A stretch of 64,000 bases of DNA. It comes from Candidatus Korarchaeum sp. Its GTDB lineage: Archaea > Korarchaeota > Korarchaeia > Korarchaeales > Korarchaeaceae. Position numbers and translations under genes: made by a program. The notes under the pieces are model-generated. The model saw nothing but the letters and a program-made list of their open reading frames with translations. It made no database searches and was not told where the DNA came from. This document shows, piece after piece, positions 1-17,515 of this stretch. Position 1 is the stretch's first letter, and each line of letters begins with the position of its first letter. The stretch is taken from assembly GCA_038888615.1 (NCBI GenBank), contig JAWAID010000001.1, positions 620,001-684,000 of the forward strand. The letters run 5' to 3'.

Positions 1-41
1 GAGGCCACAGCAATCAAAAGTTTAAACACCAATATCACCAT
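1..41 (-). CDS. N-terminal fragment of a hydrophobic (membrane) protein
   Basis: Only the first 13 codons are inside the window. They read MVILVFKLLIAVA, a strongly hydrophobic N-terminus that suggests a membrane segment or signal anchor. A GGGGGTGAGG stretch lies about 4-8 nt before the ATG and can serve as the ribosome site. An in-frame GTG at 65 would add eight residues. The gene starts 32 nt after the stop of the cysteine-rich secreted protein on the same strand, so the two are probably co-transcribed. The product cannot be identified from this fragment. Confidence 0.45.
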   Translation of the reverse strand, partial: MVILVFKLLIAVA

Positions 42-73
42 GAGGCCCTCACCCCCAATAATCACTATGGCTC

Positions 74-802
74 TTAATGATATCTCAAACATCTACACGC
101 GCAATGCGAGCTGATGCAGCAATGCGAGCACAGCCCCCCTGCATTTATCGCACAATTTACGCAGAGAAGGCATGAAAGTAGATCACCGGTCCCACACCTC
201 TTACACACTAGCACACAGCCTGTAATGCTAAGACCACACCGAATGAGGCATGGTCTGTCCCAATCATCACATATGAACTTGCAATCAGCGTACCTTCCGC
301 TAGGACAGCTTATCTGTCTGCTGCAACAGGGCCTACAGCCGCTGCTGTAGCAATCAGTACAACCAGCCTCAAGAGGCTCCACCCTAAGTTTACAGGCCCT
401 GCATACCCCATTCCCGAATATCGTGACGACCCCTGATCTGCTGAAGGAATCCAGAAGGATTCTATCACCTCTTATCAGGTAGAGGTATGCCTCAGAGTAA
501 CTGTCCTCATAAAGGATGAAGAGAAGCAGAGCTCCACCCTTGCCTCCGACGAGGGGCATCCCCAGCACAAGCCTGTCCTCTAACTTCACTGTGAGAGTCC
601 TCCCCACATCAAAGCTCCTCTCCACCTTAAAGCCAAGCGTTTTCGCTCTCTCAATGACATTAGCAAGGTCAGCTGACCTTTTAGCTTCCCCAATGAGCCT
701 TCCAAACTCATCATAGCTGAGCGGCTGAGCCCTGGATTCGAATGTTAGGGAGGAGAATAAGATCAAGGGTATGAGGAGAAGGGATGCCAGCTTATAATGC
801 AT
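74..802 (-). CDS. secreted cysteine-rich protein, possible halocin-C8-like precursor
   Basis: The 242-residue protein begins with a clear signal peptide: a short basic N-terminus, a leucine/isoleucine-rich core, and a likely cleavage near SRAQ around residue 25. Residues about 26-133 form a cysteine-free domain of mixed alpha/beta character. The last 109 residues hold 24 cysteines (22 percent) in CxxC, CC, CxC and spaced single patterns. This order of signal peptide, soluble domain and cysteine-rich tail is that of the halocin C8 precursor, whose N-terminal part is the immunity protein and whose C-terminal part is the bacteriocin. I see similar architecture and cysteine/glycine/hydrophobic texture, not a proven homology. 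A disulfide-rich surface or metal-binding protein is the alternative. A TATA box lies about 30 nt upstream, with GAGGGTTGC before the ATG. A membrane-protein gene follows on the same strand. Confidence 0.6.
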   Translation of the reverse strand: MHYKLASLLLIPLILFSSLTFESRAQPLSYDEFGRLIGEAKRSADLANVIERAKTLGFKVERSFDVGRTLTVKLEDRLVLGMPLVGGKGGALLLFILYEDSYSEAYLYLIRGDRILLDSFSRSGVVTIFGNGVCRACKLRVEPLEAGCTDCYSSGCRPCCSRQISCPSGRYADCKFICDDWDRPCLIRCGLSITGCVLVCKRCGTGDLLSCLLCVNCAINAGGLCSHCCISSHCACRCLRYH

Positions 803-830
803 AGCAACCCTCTGTTGTTAAGAAAATTTC

Positions 831-841
831 CATATATATAG
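831..841 (-). promoter_or_regulatory. TATA box for the cysteine-rich protein gene
   Basis: On the minus strand the sequence reads CTATATATATG, ending about 29 nt before the ATG at 802. It is one of the best TATA matches in the window and implies a very short leader. Confidence 0.6.
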
Positions 842-863
842 TTCGACGATTGTAGAGTTTAGA

Positions 864-4865: not shown

Positions 4866-6377
4866 CTAAGCCCTCCTCCTGAGGCTGAGCCCCTCGACGA
4901 AGATGTCCGGAAAGTGATGATTTCCGGTCAATTCTATATGAACGATCTCGGCCAGGAGCGAGTTCGCCAAGTCAAAAGCTTCCTTGCTGATGAGCATGGA
5001 CTTGGCACCAGCTAGGGCCGAGTTTCCAATTGAGATGAAGCTGCTCTCATTAACGGGAGGTATTAAACCGATGTCCAGAGCGTCCTCGAACCTCACGAAG
5101 GTACCGAATGTCCCGGCCATGACCACCCTCTCGGGCCTCACCCTGGCTTCCTCCACAAGGGTCCTCCAGGCAGCGTAGATCGAGGCTACTCCTTTCTGGA
5201 CCTCCCTAATATCCCTCTGAGTTATCTCAACCCTAGGATCCTCCAGCAAAGTCACCCTTCCATTAAGATCCCTCCTCATTCTCCCGTTTTCGTCTATTAG
5301 CCCGTTCCTTAACATCTCCGCCACGGCTGAGATCAAGCCTGAGCCCGATAGTCCCCAAGGTCTTCCAGAGAACCTGAGCCTCCACTCCCCTCCCTCGAGC
5401 CTAACCTCCCTAATAGCCTCCTCAACTCCCGCGATCCCTGGGGGCACGCTTGTCTCGAAAGCGGAGCCCGCTGGAGCTGTAGCCACGAGGATCGAGCTTC
5501 CAGTATCTAATATGACCTCAGCATTCGTTCCAAGATCTAGGAGGAGGTAGGGAGCCTCAATTCTAAGCAGTCTAGCCGTGATGATGTCCGCAAGCGCATC
5601 TGAGCCAGCGAACCCCCCTAGCGAGGGTGGTATTATCGCTAGGGCATCGGGAAGTCCCAGCTCGGGCGCGGGGCCTATCAACCATCCCTTGAGGGGTGGA
5701 TCGAACGGAGCTCTGGCTAAGCTCTCAACATCGAGTCCTAAGAGGAGGGACTGCATGACGGAGTTCCCAACTATCAGGATCGATGATAAGCACCTATCCT
5801 TGGCTATCTTGGATAGCAGCTCAGTTATGCCCTTAACAGCCAGTCTCCTGAGCTCCTCCCCCTCCCCTCTGAGCGATCTCTCCACTCTGGTGATGAGATC
5901 AGCCCCCCTGGAGACCTGAGGGTTAACAACGAATCCCTCAGCTAGAGTCTCACCGGTGTCCAGATCGACTATGGCGCCTGCTATCTTCGTGGTACCCAAG
6001 TCAACTGCGAATCCCACTTCAGAGGAGCACTCCCCTCTTCTGAAGTACTTTGGCGTGGGATCCGGTCTGAGCCTGGGCATCACCCCGGAAAACACAGCAA
6101 TTGGTCTGAGCTCAGGTATCTCTATGACGACGTCCCCCTCAATCCTGGTCCTGCAGGCCAATCTCATCCCCCTCTCCAAGACGCCAGATATCCTCTCCTC
6201 AGGAGAAGGCTCCGAGAGGGCCCCCTTCACCATCCTGATGATACAGTTCCCACAGAAGCCAGCTCCACCACAGGGCAACTCGAATCCCAGCTCCCTGCTC
6301 AGCAGCTCCCCTAAGATATCCCCTCTCCTCGCAGTGAGCTCCCTGTTGAGGGGGAGTACAAAGACCTTCGGAGCTAT
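4866..6377 (-). CDS. corrinoid-activating ATPase with [2Fe-2S] ferredoxin domain (RACo/RamA-like)
   Basis: The protein has an N-terminal plant-type ferredoxin domain whose cysteines read CGGAGFCGNC plus a later LACRTR, then a large ASKHA ATPase part starting GFAVDLGTTKIAG. This is the RACo/DUF4445 architecture: ATP-driven reduction of inactive Co(II) corrinoid to the Co(I) state. The first standard start is TTG at 6278, which would cut off the first half of the ferredoxin fold. The frame stays open upstream and encodes a proper ferredoxin N-terminus (VFVLPLNRELTARRGDIL) back to 6377. There an ATA codon follows GGAGGTG with a 5-nt gap. No ATG, GTG or TTG exists between the upstream stop and 6278 in this frame. 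A core MetE in the same window is a likely client pathway. Family call is firm; the start is inferred. Confidence 0.8.
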   Translation of the reverse strand: MAPKVFVLPLNRELTARRGDILGELLSRELGFELPCGGAGFCGNCIIRMVKGALSEPSPEERISGVLERGMRLACRTRIEGDVVIEIPELRPIAVFSGVMPRLRPDPTPKYFRRGECSSEVGFAVDLGTTKIAGAIVDLDTGETLAEGFVVNPQVSRGADLITRVERSLRGEGEELRRLAVKGITELLSKIAKDRCLSSILIVGNSVMQSLLLGLDVESLARAPFDPPLKGWLIGPAPELGLPDALAIIPPSLGGFAGSDALADIITARLLRIEAPYLLLDLGTNAEVILDTGSSILVATAPAGSAFETSVPPGIAGVEEAIREVRLEGGEWRLRFSGRPWGLSGSGLISAVAEMLRNGLIDENGRMRRDLNGRVTLLEDPRVEITQRDIREVQKGVASIYAAWRTLVEEARVRPERVVMAGTFGTFVRFEDALDIGLIPPVNESSFISIGNSALAGAKSMLISKEAFDLANSLLAEIVHIELTGNHHFPDIFVEGLSLRRRA

Positions 6378-6595
6378 GCGACCACCTCCTCACTATATCA
6401 GAGCTCCTGTTAAACGTTCCGCAACGGAGGTGCTACCATCATGGGCCGGTACTTACGAACGCGCACTCACAGGTGGTCCTCAACACCACCCCTCAGGTTA
6501 GGGGTAAAGATCTGATGCTGAAGGGTAATTTCCTTTGGAAAGCAAACAAAAGAAATCGTTTTATCGAATTACGCATCCAATACGTGGTGTCTCTC

Positions 6596-7246
6596 ATGGA
6601 GGATGTTAAGAGAGTCCTCTCGGTGTTGGAAGCCTATGCATCCATACTACCCGGGATAGCCTGGGCCGTGTCGTACCTCATGTACCTAGTGGCAGCGCTG
6701 CTCGGATCTATTTCAGCAAGTATGACAATAGAGCTGCTGGGAGTTCAGGGGGCTCCTTCCATGTCGATCATTTACGGAATCTCGCTCTCAATACTCTTCA
6801 TAATTGTATCTGCAGGTATCATCAGGCTCTGGAGAGTTTTTACGATACTGGAGGCCTTCAGAACCAAATCAGAGGCTAAGTACGGAATTCACCCCCTACT
6901 GTTGTGGCCCTTAGCTTTCATTGTAGCGGCAGTTGTGACACTGCTGGTGAGGGCATCCTTCCCACAGTCCGTCGCTCTCTTCGTCTCCCTTGGGACGGGG
7001 TTGGGGAACCTTCTCATGGCCTTAGTAACGCCTGGAAAGGAGAAGTACGGACCGCTTCTGGTAGGAGTATACCTCATTGGGACAATACCTTCCTACTATT
7101 ACCTTCCTGGGATCGCCGTATCTCTGCTGTTCTTCCACCTGTCCCTCCCTTATTTGGTGGTTTCACTCTGGTACATATTCGAGGGACAGAGGACCGCTAC
7201 GGTGATACTCCATGCAGCCAGAGGAGGAAATAAGGAGGGTAATTGA
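6596..7246 (+). CDS. multi-pass membrane protein of unknown function
   Basis: The 216-residue protein has about six hydrophobic segments, starting with GIAWAVSYLMYLVAALLGSI and ending with LVVSLWYIFEGQ before a short polar tail. The ATG at 6596 is chosen because a TTTTATCG element lies about 30 nt upstream; the open frame extends back to 6473 but that part looks non-coding. The winged-helix gene begins inside its last 35 nt in another frame, so expression is coupled. I recognise no family. Pairing with a DNA-binding protein suggests the membrane protein may sense something for the regulator, but this is a guess. Confidence 0.65.
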   Translation: MEDVKRVLSVLEAYASILPGIAWAVSYLMYLVAALLGSISASMTIELLGVQGAPSMSIIYGISLSILFIIVSAGIIRLWRVFTILEAFRTKSEAKYGIHPLLLWPLAFIVAAVVTLLVRASFPQSVALFVSLGTGLGNLLMALVTPGKEKYGPLLVGVYLIGTIPSYYYLPGIAVSLLFFHLSLPYLVVSLWYIFEGQRTATVILHAARGGNKEGN

Positions 7247-15355: not shown

Positions 15356-17111
15356 GCGAGTTAGCTAAGCTCCTGTAACGATCTAGAGCCCTCCTCACGT
15401 AATCCTCCTCTATCCTACCGTGAGGGGAGGGGGTCTCGAGGACCCTCCTCGGTAACCTTAGCTCACTCGGGTCGAATCCCATCTCCATCTTCAGCCTGAG
15501 CTTCTCCCGGTATATCTCCCTCCCGAGGTCCCTCAGCTCCTCCTCGCTCATCTCGATCCCGAGTGGCCTCAAGGCTCTCGATATCATCTCAGGTTTGTAG
15601 ACACCTCTAACGAACAGGCAGAGGACGAGCGAAGTTAGGACCTGCCTCCAGCACTCCTCCTCAACGAGCTCATCGACTAGCGCCTCCGGGTCAGGATAAG
15701 CCCTTCCTAGGTACTTCTGATCGAGGGAGTAGCCCGCGTTATCCAAATGGCTATGCCTGAGACCTATCAAGTAGCCTATGTGGGATGCTGGTCCCGTGTG
15801 ATAACCCGGCATCTCATTACCACCGAAGGTAAGCGCGTAATCAGAGCCACCGTATCTCTCAGCAGCTTTCTCAGTTCCTTGAGCTAGGAGTTTGTAAAAA
15901 TCGTTTGGTTGTTCCACTATGAGCTCCAGGATTCTAAGATAAGTCCTCCAATCCCCCCACTCAGGTTTGACCAGGGTCTCCCTCTCGCTCAACTCACCCC
16001 TCTCGAAGGCCTCAGTAACCCAAGCTAGCGCTACACCAGAGCTTATCGCGTCCAGCCCGAGGATATCTACCTGTTCTATGAGCTTCAGAACCCCTTCGAG
16101 CTCGCTGACCCCTAGCATACTGCCAAGAGCGTATATGGGCTCATAATCGTAACTTATGTGCCTTGTGACGTAGAAGTACCTCTCGCCCGGGTAGAGCTCC
16201 CTTATCGAGGCTATGTGGATGCAGGCTATAGGGCAATGGGCACAAGCTATCCTCCTAGCCAGGCTCTCCTGGGCAAACCTCTCCCCGCTTATGAGCTCAG
16301 CTCCCTCGAACCTAGCTGACCTCAGGTTCCTAGTAGGCAGACCCCCGATCTCGTTGAGCGGGATGACGTTCTCGGCCGTCCCTAGCTCATGGTACTTCCT
16401 GGTCGCTGGGCTCCTGAGGCATCCCTCGAAGGCCTGTTTATAAGCTTCCCTGTAACCCCTAACATCGGCAACGGGGATAGCCCTCTTCCCACCTAACACG
16501 AGGGCCTTGAGTCTCTTAGAGCCCCATACTGCCCCCAATCCAAGCCTACCGAAGTGCCTGTATGTCTCTAGGATGACTGAGGCGTACCTCACTAACCTCT
16601 CCCCGGCCCTACCTATCCTCATTATGCTCCTGAGACCGGGCCAAGGCTCCCTCTCCCTGAGGACCTTACCTATCGTGAGAGAGCTCCTCACACCCCAGAG
16701 GGCGCTAGCGTCCTTGAACTCCACCCTTCCATCGTGGACGGAGAGGTAGATAGGTGTGTCACTGGCCCCCCTTATCACCAGAGCCCCGAAACCGGACATC
16801 CTCAGGGATAGAGCTGCCCTACCTCCCGCGTGAGACTCCCCCAGGTTGCCTGTGAGCGGGGACTTGAACATAGCGACTAGCTTGGAGGCAGCAGGGTAAA
16901 CGGCGGTGAAGACGCCTATTGCCATAACTACTACGTTCTCAGGGGATAGGGGATCTGCCTTAGGGTCCAGCTCCTCCTTGAGTATCTGCACGGCCACACC
17001 AGTGCCCCCCAAGTACTTCGAGAAGAGGTCCTCCCTCCTCCTCACCCTGTACCTCCTGTTCGTGAGGTCCACGTAGAGCACTCTAGCCAACTGCTCATCA
17101 GCTAGGGGCAT
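15348..17111 (-). CDS. tungsten-type aldehyde ferredoxin oxidoreductase, large subunit
   Basis: This 587-residue AOR-family protein oxidises aldehydes to carboxylic acids at a tungsto-bispterin site and passes electrons to ferredoxin. The N-terminal pterin-binding part has FSKYLGGTGVAVQ and FKSPLTGNLGESHAGG. The cluster ligands read CAHCPIAC (about residue 295) with the distal cysteine in SLVLCLFVR near residue 505. ATG 17111 (TGATG overlap with the ferredoxin stop, AGGTG 5 nt upstream) is preferred over GTG 17114. Pairing with a four-cluster ferredoxin subunit matches WOR5 of Pyrococcus rather than the homodimeric AOR. The aldehyde is unknown; amino-acid-derived aldehydes would fit a peptide fermenter. 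Confidence 0.88.
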   Translation of the reverse strand: MPLADEQLARVLYVDLTNRRYRVRRREDLFSKYLGGTGVAVQILKEELDPKADPLSPENVVVMAIGVFTAVYPAASKLVAMFKSPLTGNLGESHAGGRAALSLRMSGFGALVIRGASDTPIYLSVHDGRVEFKDASALWGVRSSLTIGKVLREREPWPGLRSIMRIGRAGERLVRYASVILETYRHFGRLGLGAVWGSKRLKALVLGGKRAIPVADVRGYREAYKQAFEGCLRSPATRKYHELGTAENVIPLNEIGGLPTRNLRSARFEGAELISGERFAQESLARRIACAHCPIACIHIASIRELYPGERYFYVTRHISYDYEPIYALGSMLGVSELEGVLKLIEQVDILGLDAISSGVALAWVTEAFERGELSERETLVKPEWGDWRTYLRILELIVEQPNDFYKLLAQGTEKAAERYGGSDYALTFGGNEMPGYHTGPASHIGYLIGLRHSHLDNAGYSLDQKYLGRAYPDPEALVDELVEEECWRQVLTSLVLCLFVRGVYKPEMISRALRPLGIEMSEEELRDLGREIYREKLRLKMEMGFDPSELRLPRRVLETPSPHGRIEEDYVRRALDRYRSLANSLT

Positions 17112-17515
17112 CACATCACCTTAATGACACCGTAAGGGCAGAAGTCAACGCAGTATCCGCAGTGAGTACATATAATGGGTTTACCCTCGACCTCATCCCA
17201 GAAAACAGCCCCGAATGGGCAAGCTTGAACGCAGTATCCGCAGCCTATGCATAGCCTAGAGTCGAGCGTGACGCCGCCCCCTCCCCTGAGCTTGAGGGCT
17301 GACGTGGGGCATACCTTAACGCAAGAAGGGGCATCGCAAGCCCTACAGACCACTACTGTGAAACCCCTCTCGACACCCCCAACGCTCCTGATGCGTATGG
17401 CTGAGTAGTTAAGGCCCGAATCCCCAAATCTCCTGGAGCACGCGAACATGCAGGACATACAGCCCACGCAGAGATCGGGATCGATGACCTCCAACCTCCT
17501 CCTAGTCAAGGCCAT
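17111..17515 (-). CDS. 16-cysteine polyferredoxin, partner subunit of the AOR
   Basis: The 134-residue protein has 16 cysteines in four groups, enough for four [4Fe-4S] clusters: LCVGCMSCMFAC, VCRACDAPSCVKVCP, LCIGCGYCVQACP and ICTHCGYCVDFCP. This is the electron-transfer subunit seen with WOR5-type and related multi-subunit aldehyde oxidoreductases, where it wires the large subunit to external ferredoxin. It is transcribed first, from a TATA element at 17546-17554, with GGGAGGAG before the ATG. Confidence 0.9.
   Translation of the reverse strand: MALTRRRLEVIDPDLCVGCMSCMFACSRRFGDSGLNYSAIRIRSVGGVERGFTVVVCRACDAPSCVKVCPTSALKLRGGGGVTLDSRLCIGCGYCVQACPFGAVFWDEVEGKPIICTHCGYCVDFCPYGVIKVM

Follow-up and report, generated by a model that had tools for sequence, protein, structure and literature searches.

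Most of the peptide or protein antibiotics known from archaea are halocins and sulfolobicins (PMC10105419). Of these, halocin C8 is made from a precursor (ProC8) with a PF22862 N-domain and a TIGR04449 C-domain, is exported by the Tat pathway (PMC11509114), and has an immunity protein, HalI, in which a helix-loop-helix is essential according to the title of Mei et al. 2008, cited in PMC11509114. The precursor gene described here resembles ProC8 in that it encodes an exported protein with an N-part followed by a Cys-rich, hydrophobic C-part, and a possible helix-loop-helix opens the N-part in both (in our precursor, in a low-confidence model). It differs in cysteine number (22–24, against 10 in halocin C8), in its Sec-type rather than Tat signal, and in its hosts, which are Korarchaeia and Thermococcus-like genomes rather than haloarchaea. 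The neighbours differ as well: just downstream of the precursor, the haloarchaeal loci that we examined carry a short ORF with a single hydrophobic stretch, whereas the genes beside our precursor are larger and multi-TM. The polymorphic-toxin/VARTIG-like hypervariable modules of archaea (PMC8416519) share a variable C-terminal part, adjacent membrane genes and a location in accessory islands with the precursor family, but they are built around a large Ig-domain surface protein and not a small Cys-rich peptide.

We analysed a 64,000-nucleotide stretch (the window; G000:C1:620001-684000) of a 1.67-Mb korarchaeal genome. Its precursor gene is best read, and on balance probably so given its sequence and context, as encoding a disulfide-rich archaeocin precursor, a peptide antibiotic directed against related archaea, with membrane proteins as immunity or export partners.

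A two-domain precursor in an accessory island

The precursor gene (window 74..802, minus strand), recognised as an ORF with homologues, encodes a predicted secreted two-domain protein of 242 aa with 24 Cys. Residues 1-25 (728..802, minus) form a predicted Sec-type signal peptide, read by eye as MHYKL..LLLIPLILFSSLTFESRA|Q and cut at ...FESRA|Q, with a hydrophobic stretch at residues 5-23; a twin arginine was sought by reading the signal MHYKLASLLLIPLIL and none was found, so the signal does not qualify as a Tat signal. The N-domain that follows (residues 26-133; 404..727, minus) is free of cysteine, and the whole-protein AlphaFold model, of low confidence (mean pLDDT 43.9), gives it a helix-loop-helix and then about 6 strands. 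Ahead of the ATG is a Shine-Dalgarno-like stretch, GAGGGTT, within GAGGGTTGCT (803..812, minus), and further upstream a TATA-like promoter element, ACTATATATATGGA (829..842, minus), whose box ACTATATATATGG lies about 34 nt from the ATG; the element is also present in a paralogue of the gene at nearly identical spacing. The signal peptide, the 108-residue cysteine-free domain and the promoter claimed in an earlier note on this DNA are thereby borne out, the signal as a plausible one of Sec type.

The gene lies in the right end (window 1..863) of a 4.1-kb AT-rich island, delimited by comparison with three congeners lacking it, with 47% GC against 55–56% in both flanks; the island holds the precursor and three hydrophobic ORFs. 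In the congeners (G010, G011 and G012) the site is empty, and the two flanking genes adjoin under about 100 bp apart. The precursor locus is accessory and patchily distributed. Neighbours of the precursor include a DUF84 NTPase, MobB-like, TM, PDDEXK and Arcadin_1-like genes, the last of these being the gene across the island (L004:6426-6773; G000:C1:616426-616773), which matches Arcadin_1 (PF18653) at E 1e-6. An adjacent modification enzyme, of lanthipeptide or sactipeptide type, was sought among the locus neighbours and none was found.

Directly downstream and on the same strand, a multi-TM gene begins 32 nt from the end of the precursor, its likely ATG at window position 41 behind GGGGGTGAGG. 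Its 5′ end alone falls in the window (1..41, minus) and the gene, a candidate immunity or export protein, runs on to G000:C1:619487 left of the window. Read past the edge, the complete ORF is 201 aa long (184 aa from the likely ATG) with about 6 hydrophobic stretches, so the hydrophobic-protein gene proposed at this spot from its cut-off start is real. It is followed by a second homologue and then by a third, shorter hydrophobic ORF.

The cysteine-rich C-domain

All 24 Cys of the precursor fall at residues 134-238, within the C-terminal domain of residues 134-242 (77..403, minus), as had been claimed for the last 109 residues. Against a background of 0.56% Cys in window ORFs of at least 300 aa, 24 in 109 residues has a binomial probability of about 5e-31 and is not chance. 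The density is by far the highest among window ORFs; the runner-up is an ordinary 134-aa 4Fe-4S ferredoxin with 15 Cys (window 17111-17515, minus).

Between the two halves lies a motif, VEPLE (V-x-P-[LMT]-x; residues 141-145; 368..382, minus), found by alignment; all 11 aligned homologues share P143 of the window protein. We regard it as a candidate processing boundary. Since C134 and C137 precede the motif, the conserved Cys-rich part of the window protein has 22 Cys. In the eight independent members, a set that excludes the frame-shifted paralogue and duplicates of near-identical sequence, the Cys past the motif number 22, 22, 18, 20, 16, 20, 14 and 13, and the even count in seven of the eight fits complete disulfide pairing (chance alone, about 3.5%). 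The window C-domain contains 6 CxxC pairs and a hydrophobic, Cys-lined stretch at residues 183-229 (116..256, minus; GRAVY +1.04), predicted from low-confidence models to form a helical hairpin. AlphaFold mean pLDDT was 44 for the whole protein and 49 for the C-domain, too low for a fold search. In thermococcal members the C-domain carries a net acidic charge, which is unusual among membrane-active peptides and counts against a membrane-active archaeocin.

Family and distribution

Only 3 of 29 Korarchaeota genomes carry the precursor. The korarchaeal members are the window gene and a paralogue in the same genome at C1:73015, to which G016 contributes two copies and G005 a fragment; a genome scan named an uncultured archaeon MAG and the Thermoproteota MAG Aegir_M25_B147 as relatives. 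The window gene and its paralogue (L005:7016-7753; G000:C1:73015-73752) share 54% identity in the N-part and 64% in the C-part. A frame shift close to the 3′ end of the paralogue leaves the conserved Cys tail in another frame, so this copy is either decaying or mis-sequenced. The second G016 copy (L015:1516-2856 and 6223-6969) lies near TnpB-like pieces and a CRISPR-like repeat array at a contig end.

Distant homologues were detected with E down to 1.5e-10 (profile A4) in Thermococcus-like genomes (the phylum of G033), presumed from their gene content to be Thermococcaceae, and the korarchaeal and thermococcal C-domains are homologous (hhalign 97.2%, E 3e-11, 0 of 60 shuffles). Members share a signal peptide, a Cys-poor N-part, the V-x-P-[LMT] motif and a Cys-rich part of 90–111 residues. 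Searches of Pfam, NCBIfam and PDB with the window protein and the family gave no credible match, no credible homologue was found in viral contigs or plasmids, and in three other archaeal phyla (152, 398 and 228 genomes searched) profile A7 returned nothing credible, only matches of E about 0.007 to the N-half or to short stretches. The WAP four-disulfide core (PF00095) was rejected as a candidate: its best match, in one relative, had E 0.012 and 16.3 bits against a cut-off of 20.8, and the window protein had none.

Conserved and orphan membrane genes

A multi-TM gene stands directly behind every precursor copy readable past its end, on the same strand and with an overlap or a short gap; across the korarchaeal and thermococcal groups this linkage is defined by position and multi-TM character. 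The precursor proteins form a family of accessory nature, linked to a TM gene and provisionally regarded as new.

Homologues of the TM gene also occur on their own. G010 and G012, both lacking the precursor, each carry two elsewhere in the genome, as expected for orphan immunity genes, and short pieces of TM genes are present in G000 and G005. Orphans in both genomes (L060:4194-5215 in G010 and L062:3639-4667 in G012) sit behind an 86-aa ORF, and the C-terminus of this ORF matches the C-terminus of a NuoN-like gene at L059/L061, which suggests a segmental duplication of the junction.

Swapped halves in thermococcal alleles

Two thermococcal loci, L033 and L037, are closely similar in one part of the precursor and diverged in the other; the swap of C-halves described here is seen in these relatives, not in the window genome. 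Their signal and helix-loop-helix share 84–93% DNA identity (77 of 88 residues), the second half shares 38–58% (25 of 61 residues in the rest of the N-part, 30 of 91 in the C-part), and identity returns in the downstream TM gene (87–93% of DNA over most of its length, 82 of 105 residues). Immediately behind its swapped C-part L037 has an extra 58-aa hydrophobic ORF. The pattern looks like the swap of a toxin core together with its cognate immunity gene. As the larger TM gene travels with the N-half, it is not simply the cognate immunity protein of the C-part; only the 58-aa ORF fits that role, and the larger gene could serve as a general partner. The pattern might also stem from a chimera, since the contig bearing L037 is 3.9 kb long and belongs to an 80% complete MAG.

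Weighing the readings

The earlier note had called the protein a possible thermophilic relative of halocin C8. In proposed function the likeness finds support: the precursor looks as if it works like halocin C8, and the analogy gains independent support from the two-gene unit in two lineages, the empty site, the orphan TM genes, the C-half swap and the motif between the halves. Family membership is not supported. The check proposed in that note, Pfam and profile comparison of both halves with halocin-C8-like domains, gave no match: TIGR04449 was not matched at E<=10 in NCBIfam by the window protein or 5 members, nor found in 41 genomes, and PF22862 had no Pfam match in the family and none at the locus when the genome was searched at E<=10. 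For profile comparisons we used haloarchaeal plasmid loci and TIGR04449 proteins, the latter present in 7 of the 115 genomes of the G033 phylum. Set against column shuffles and unrelated window proteins, the hhalign similarity to halocin C8 stayed below threshold, both over the full length and for the separate domains, PF22862 included. That the precursor nevertheless belongs to the halocin C8 family as a genuine but far-diverged member, with both domains of common ancestry, is suggested by the same order of parts, by an N-half modelled (with low confidence) to begin with a helix-loop-helix, and by a full-length profile comparison that outscored each of 40 shuffles; T2a, a borderline TIGR04449 group, does no better when compared with haloarchaeal members. 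Yet unrelated window proteins score equally high in the full-length comparison, the C-domain profiles compare at shuffle level (27 of 60, hhalign), and with both domain models unmatched and a Tat signal absent we consider such ancestry very improbable.

The many cysteines could instead belong to a secreted or surface protein with a metal-binding, redox or structural role, stabilised by disulfides, the TM gene then encoding a membrane anchor or assembly factor. The CxxC pairs of the C-domain would also fit metal binding, extracellular proteins of hyperthermophiles may use many disulfides, and the weak matches that were obtained are to Cys-rich extracellular domains (WAP, below its cut-off in one relative, and thrombomodulin, E 0.1). 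This reading is unlikely, however, given Cys counts past the motif that vary from 13 to 22 and are nearly always even, the lack of a family match and the patchy accessory island; a housekeeping binder would not be expected to have mosaic alleles or orphan TM genes. A clear match to a metal-binding or S-layer family, or the lack of a conserved cleavage site between the halves in orthologues, had been named beforehand as speaking against a peptide antibiotic; there was no clear match of this kind, and the boundary motif, a candidate cleavage site, is conserved. A variable C-half beside a conserved TM partner is also what one would see if the adjacent TM protein were a receptor for the C-half, the precursor being a secreted recognition molecule (a kin or self/non-self marker, or a pheromone), and hypervariable surface modules with membrane genes behind them are described in Thermococcales (PMC8416519). 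Against this, a recognisable signalling protein is absent beside the gene and TM genes orphaned from any ligand fit immunity better, so that a role in recognition seems quite unlikely.

Of the features expected of an archaeocin, an adjacent conserved membrane gene is present, the locus is accessory and patchy with swapped cores (the swap in thermococcal relatives), and a secreted precursor with a separable Cys-rich peptide is seen at the level of sequence anatomy only. If it is an archaeocin precursor, the protein would be exported by Sec and lose its signal, as its sequence suggests, and all or nearly all Cys of the C-domain would pair outside the cell to give a heat-stable, Cys-stapled hydrophobic helical hairpin, a step to which the even Cys counts, the hydropathy and a weak model point. 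By analogy with halocin C8, a cut near the V-x-P-L/M motif would release a peptide of 11 kDa, and the Cys-free N-domain would be a pro-region and perhaps also the immunity part. The peptide might then attack the membrane of competitors, whilst the adjacent multi-TM proteins would shield the producer or aid export, as their conserved linkage, duplication and orphan copies suggest.

More tentatively, the whole could well be a new archaeocin family of hyperthermophiles, spread over Korarchaeia and Thermococcus-like archaea, with a peptide of 7–11 disulfides, a two-part precursor, swapping of C-halves and multi-TM proteins that counter the peptide and whose genes also spread by themselves as orphans conferring resistance. 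To our knowledge, an archaeocin here would give Korarchaeota their first candidate interference system. A family common to a barely cultured phylum and to Thermococcus-like archaea would open antagonism between deep-branching hyperthermophiles to experiment in a host with workable genetics. It would also supply a peptide scaffold very dense in cysteine and presumably stable to heat, along with candidate immunity proteins for which natural swap variants exist.

Core swapping in TIGR04449 proteins

The TIGR04449 proteins of Thermococcus-like genomes (L024-L032) resemble the precursor in having a signal peptide, a Cys-poor N-part, a Cys-rich C-part and small TM genes downstream. They differ in Cys spacing, and their profile similarity to the precursor family is not above the shuffled maximum. 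A swap of cores, as between L033 and L037, is found here in a tandem copy: at L026:513-2472 a TIGR04449 gene is followed by a truncated copy whose N-part is 94% identical in DNA, joined to a different C-part of 12 Cys. Judged from these sequences, the tandem copy is a case of core swapping within a recognised archaeocin family.
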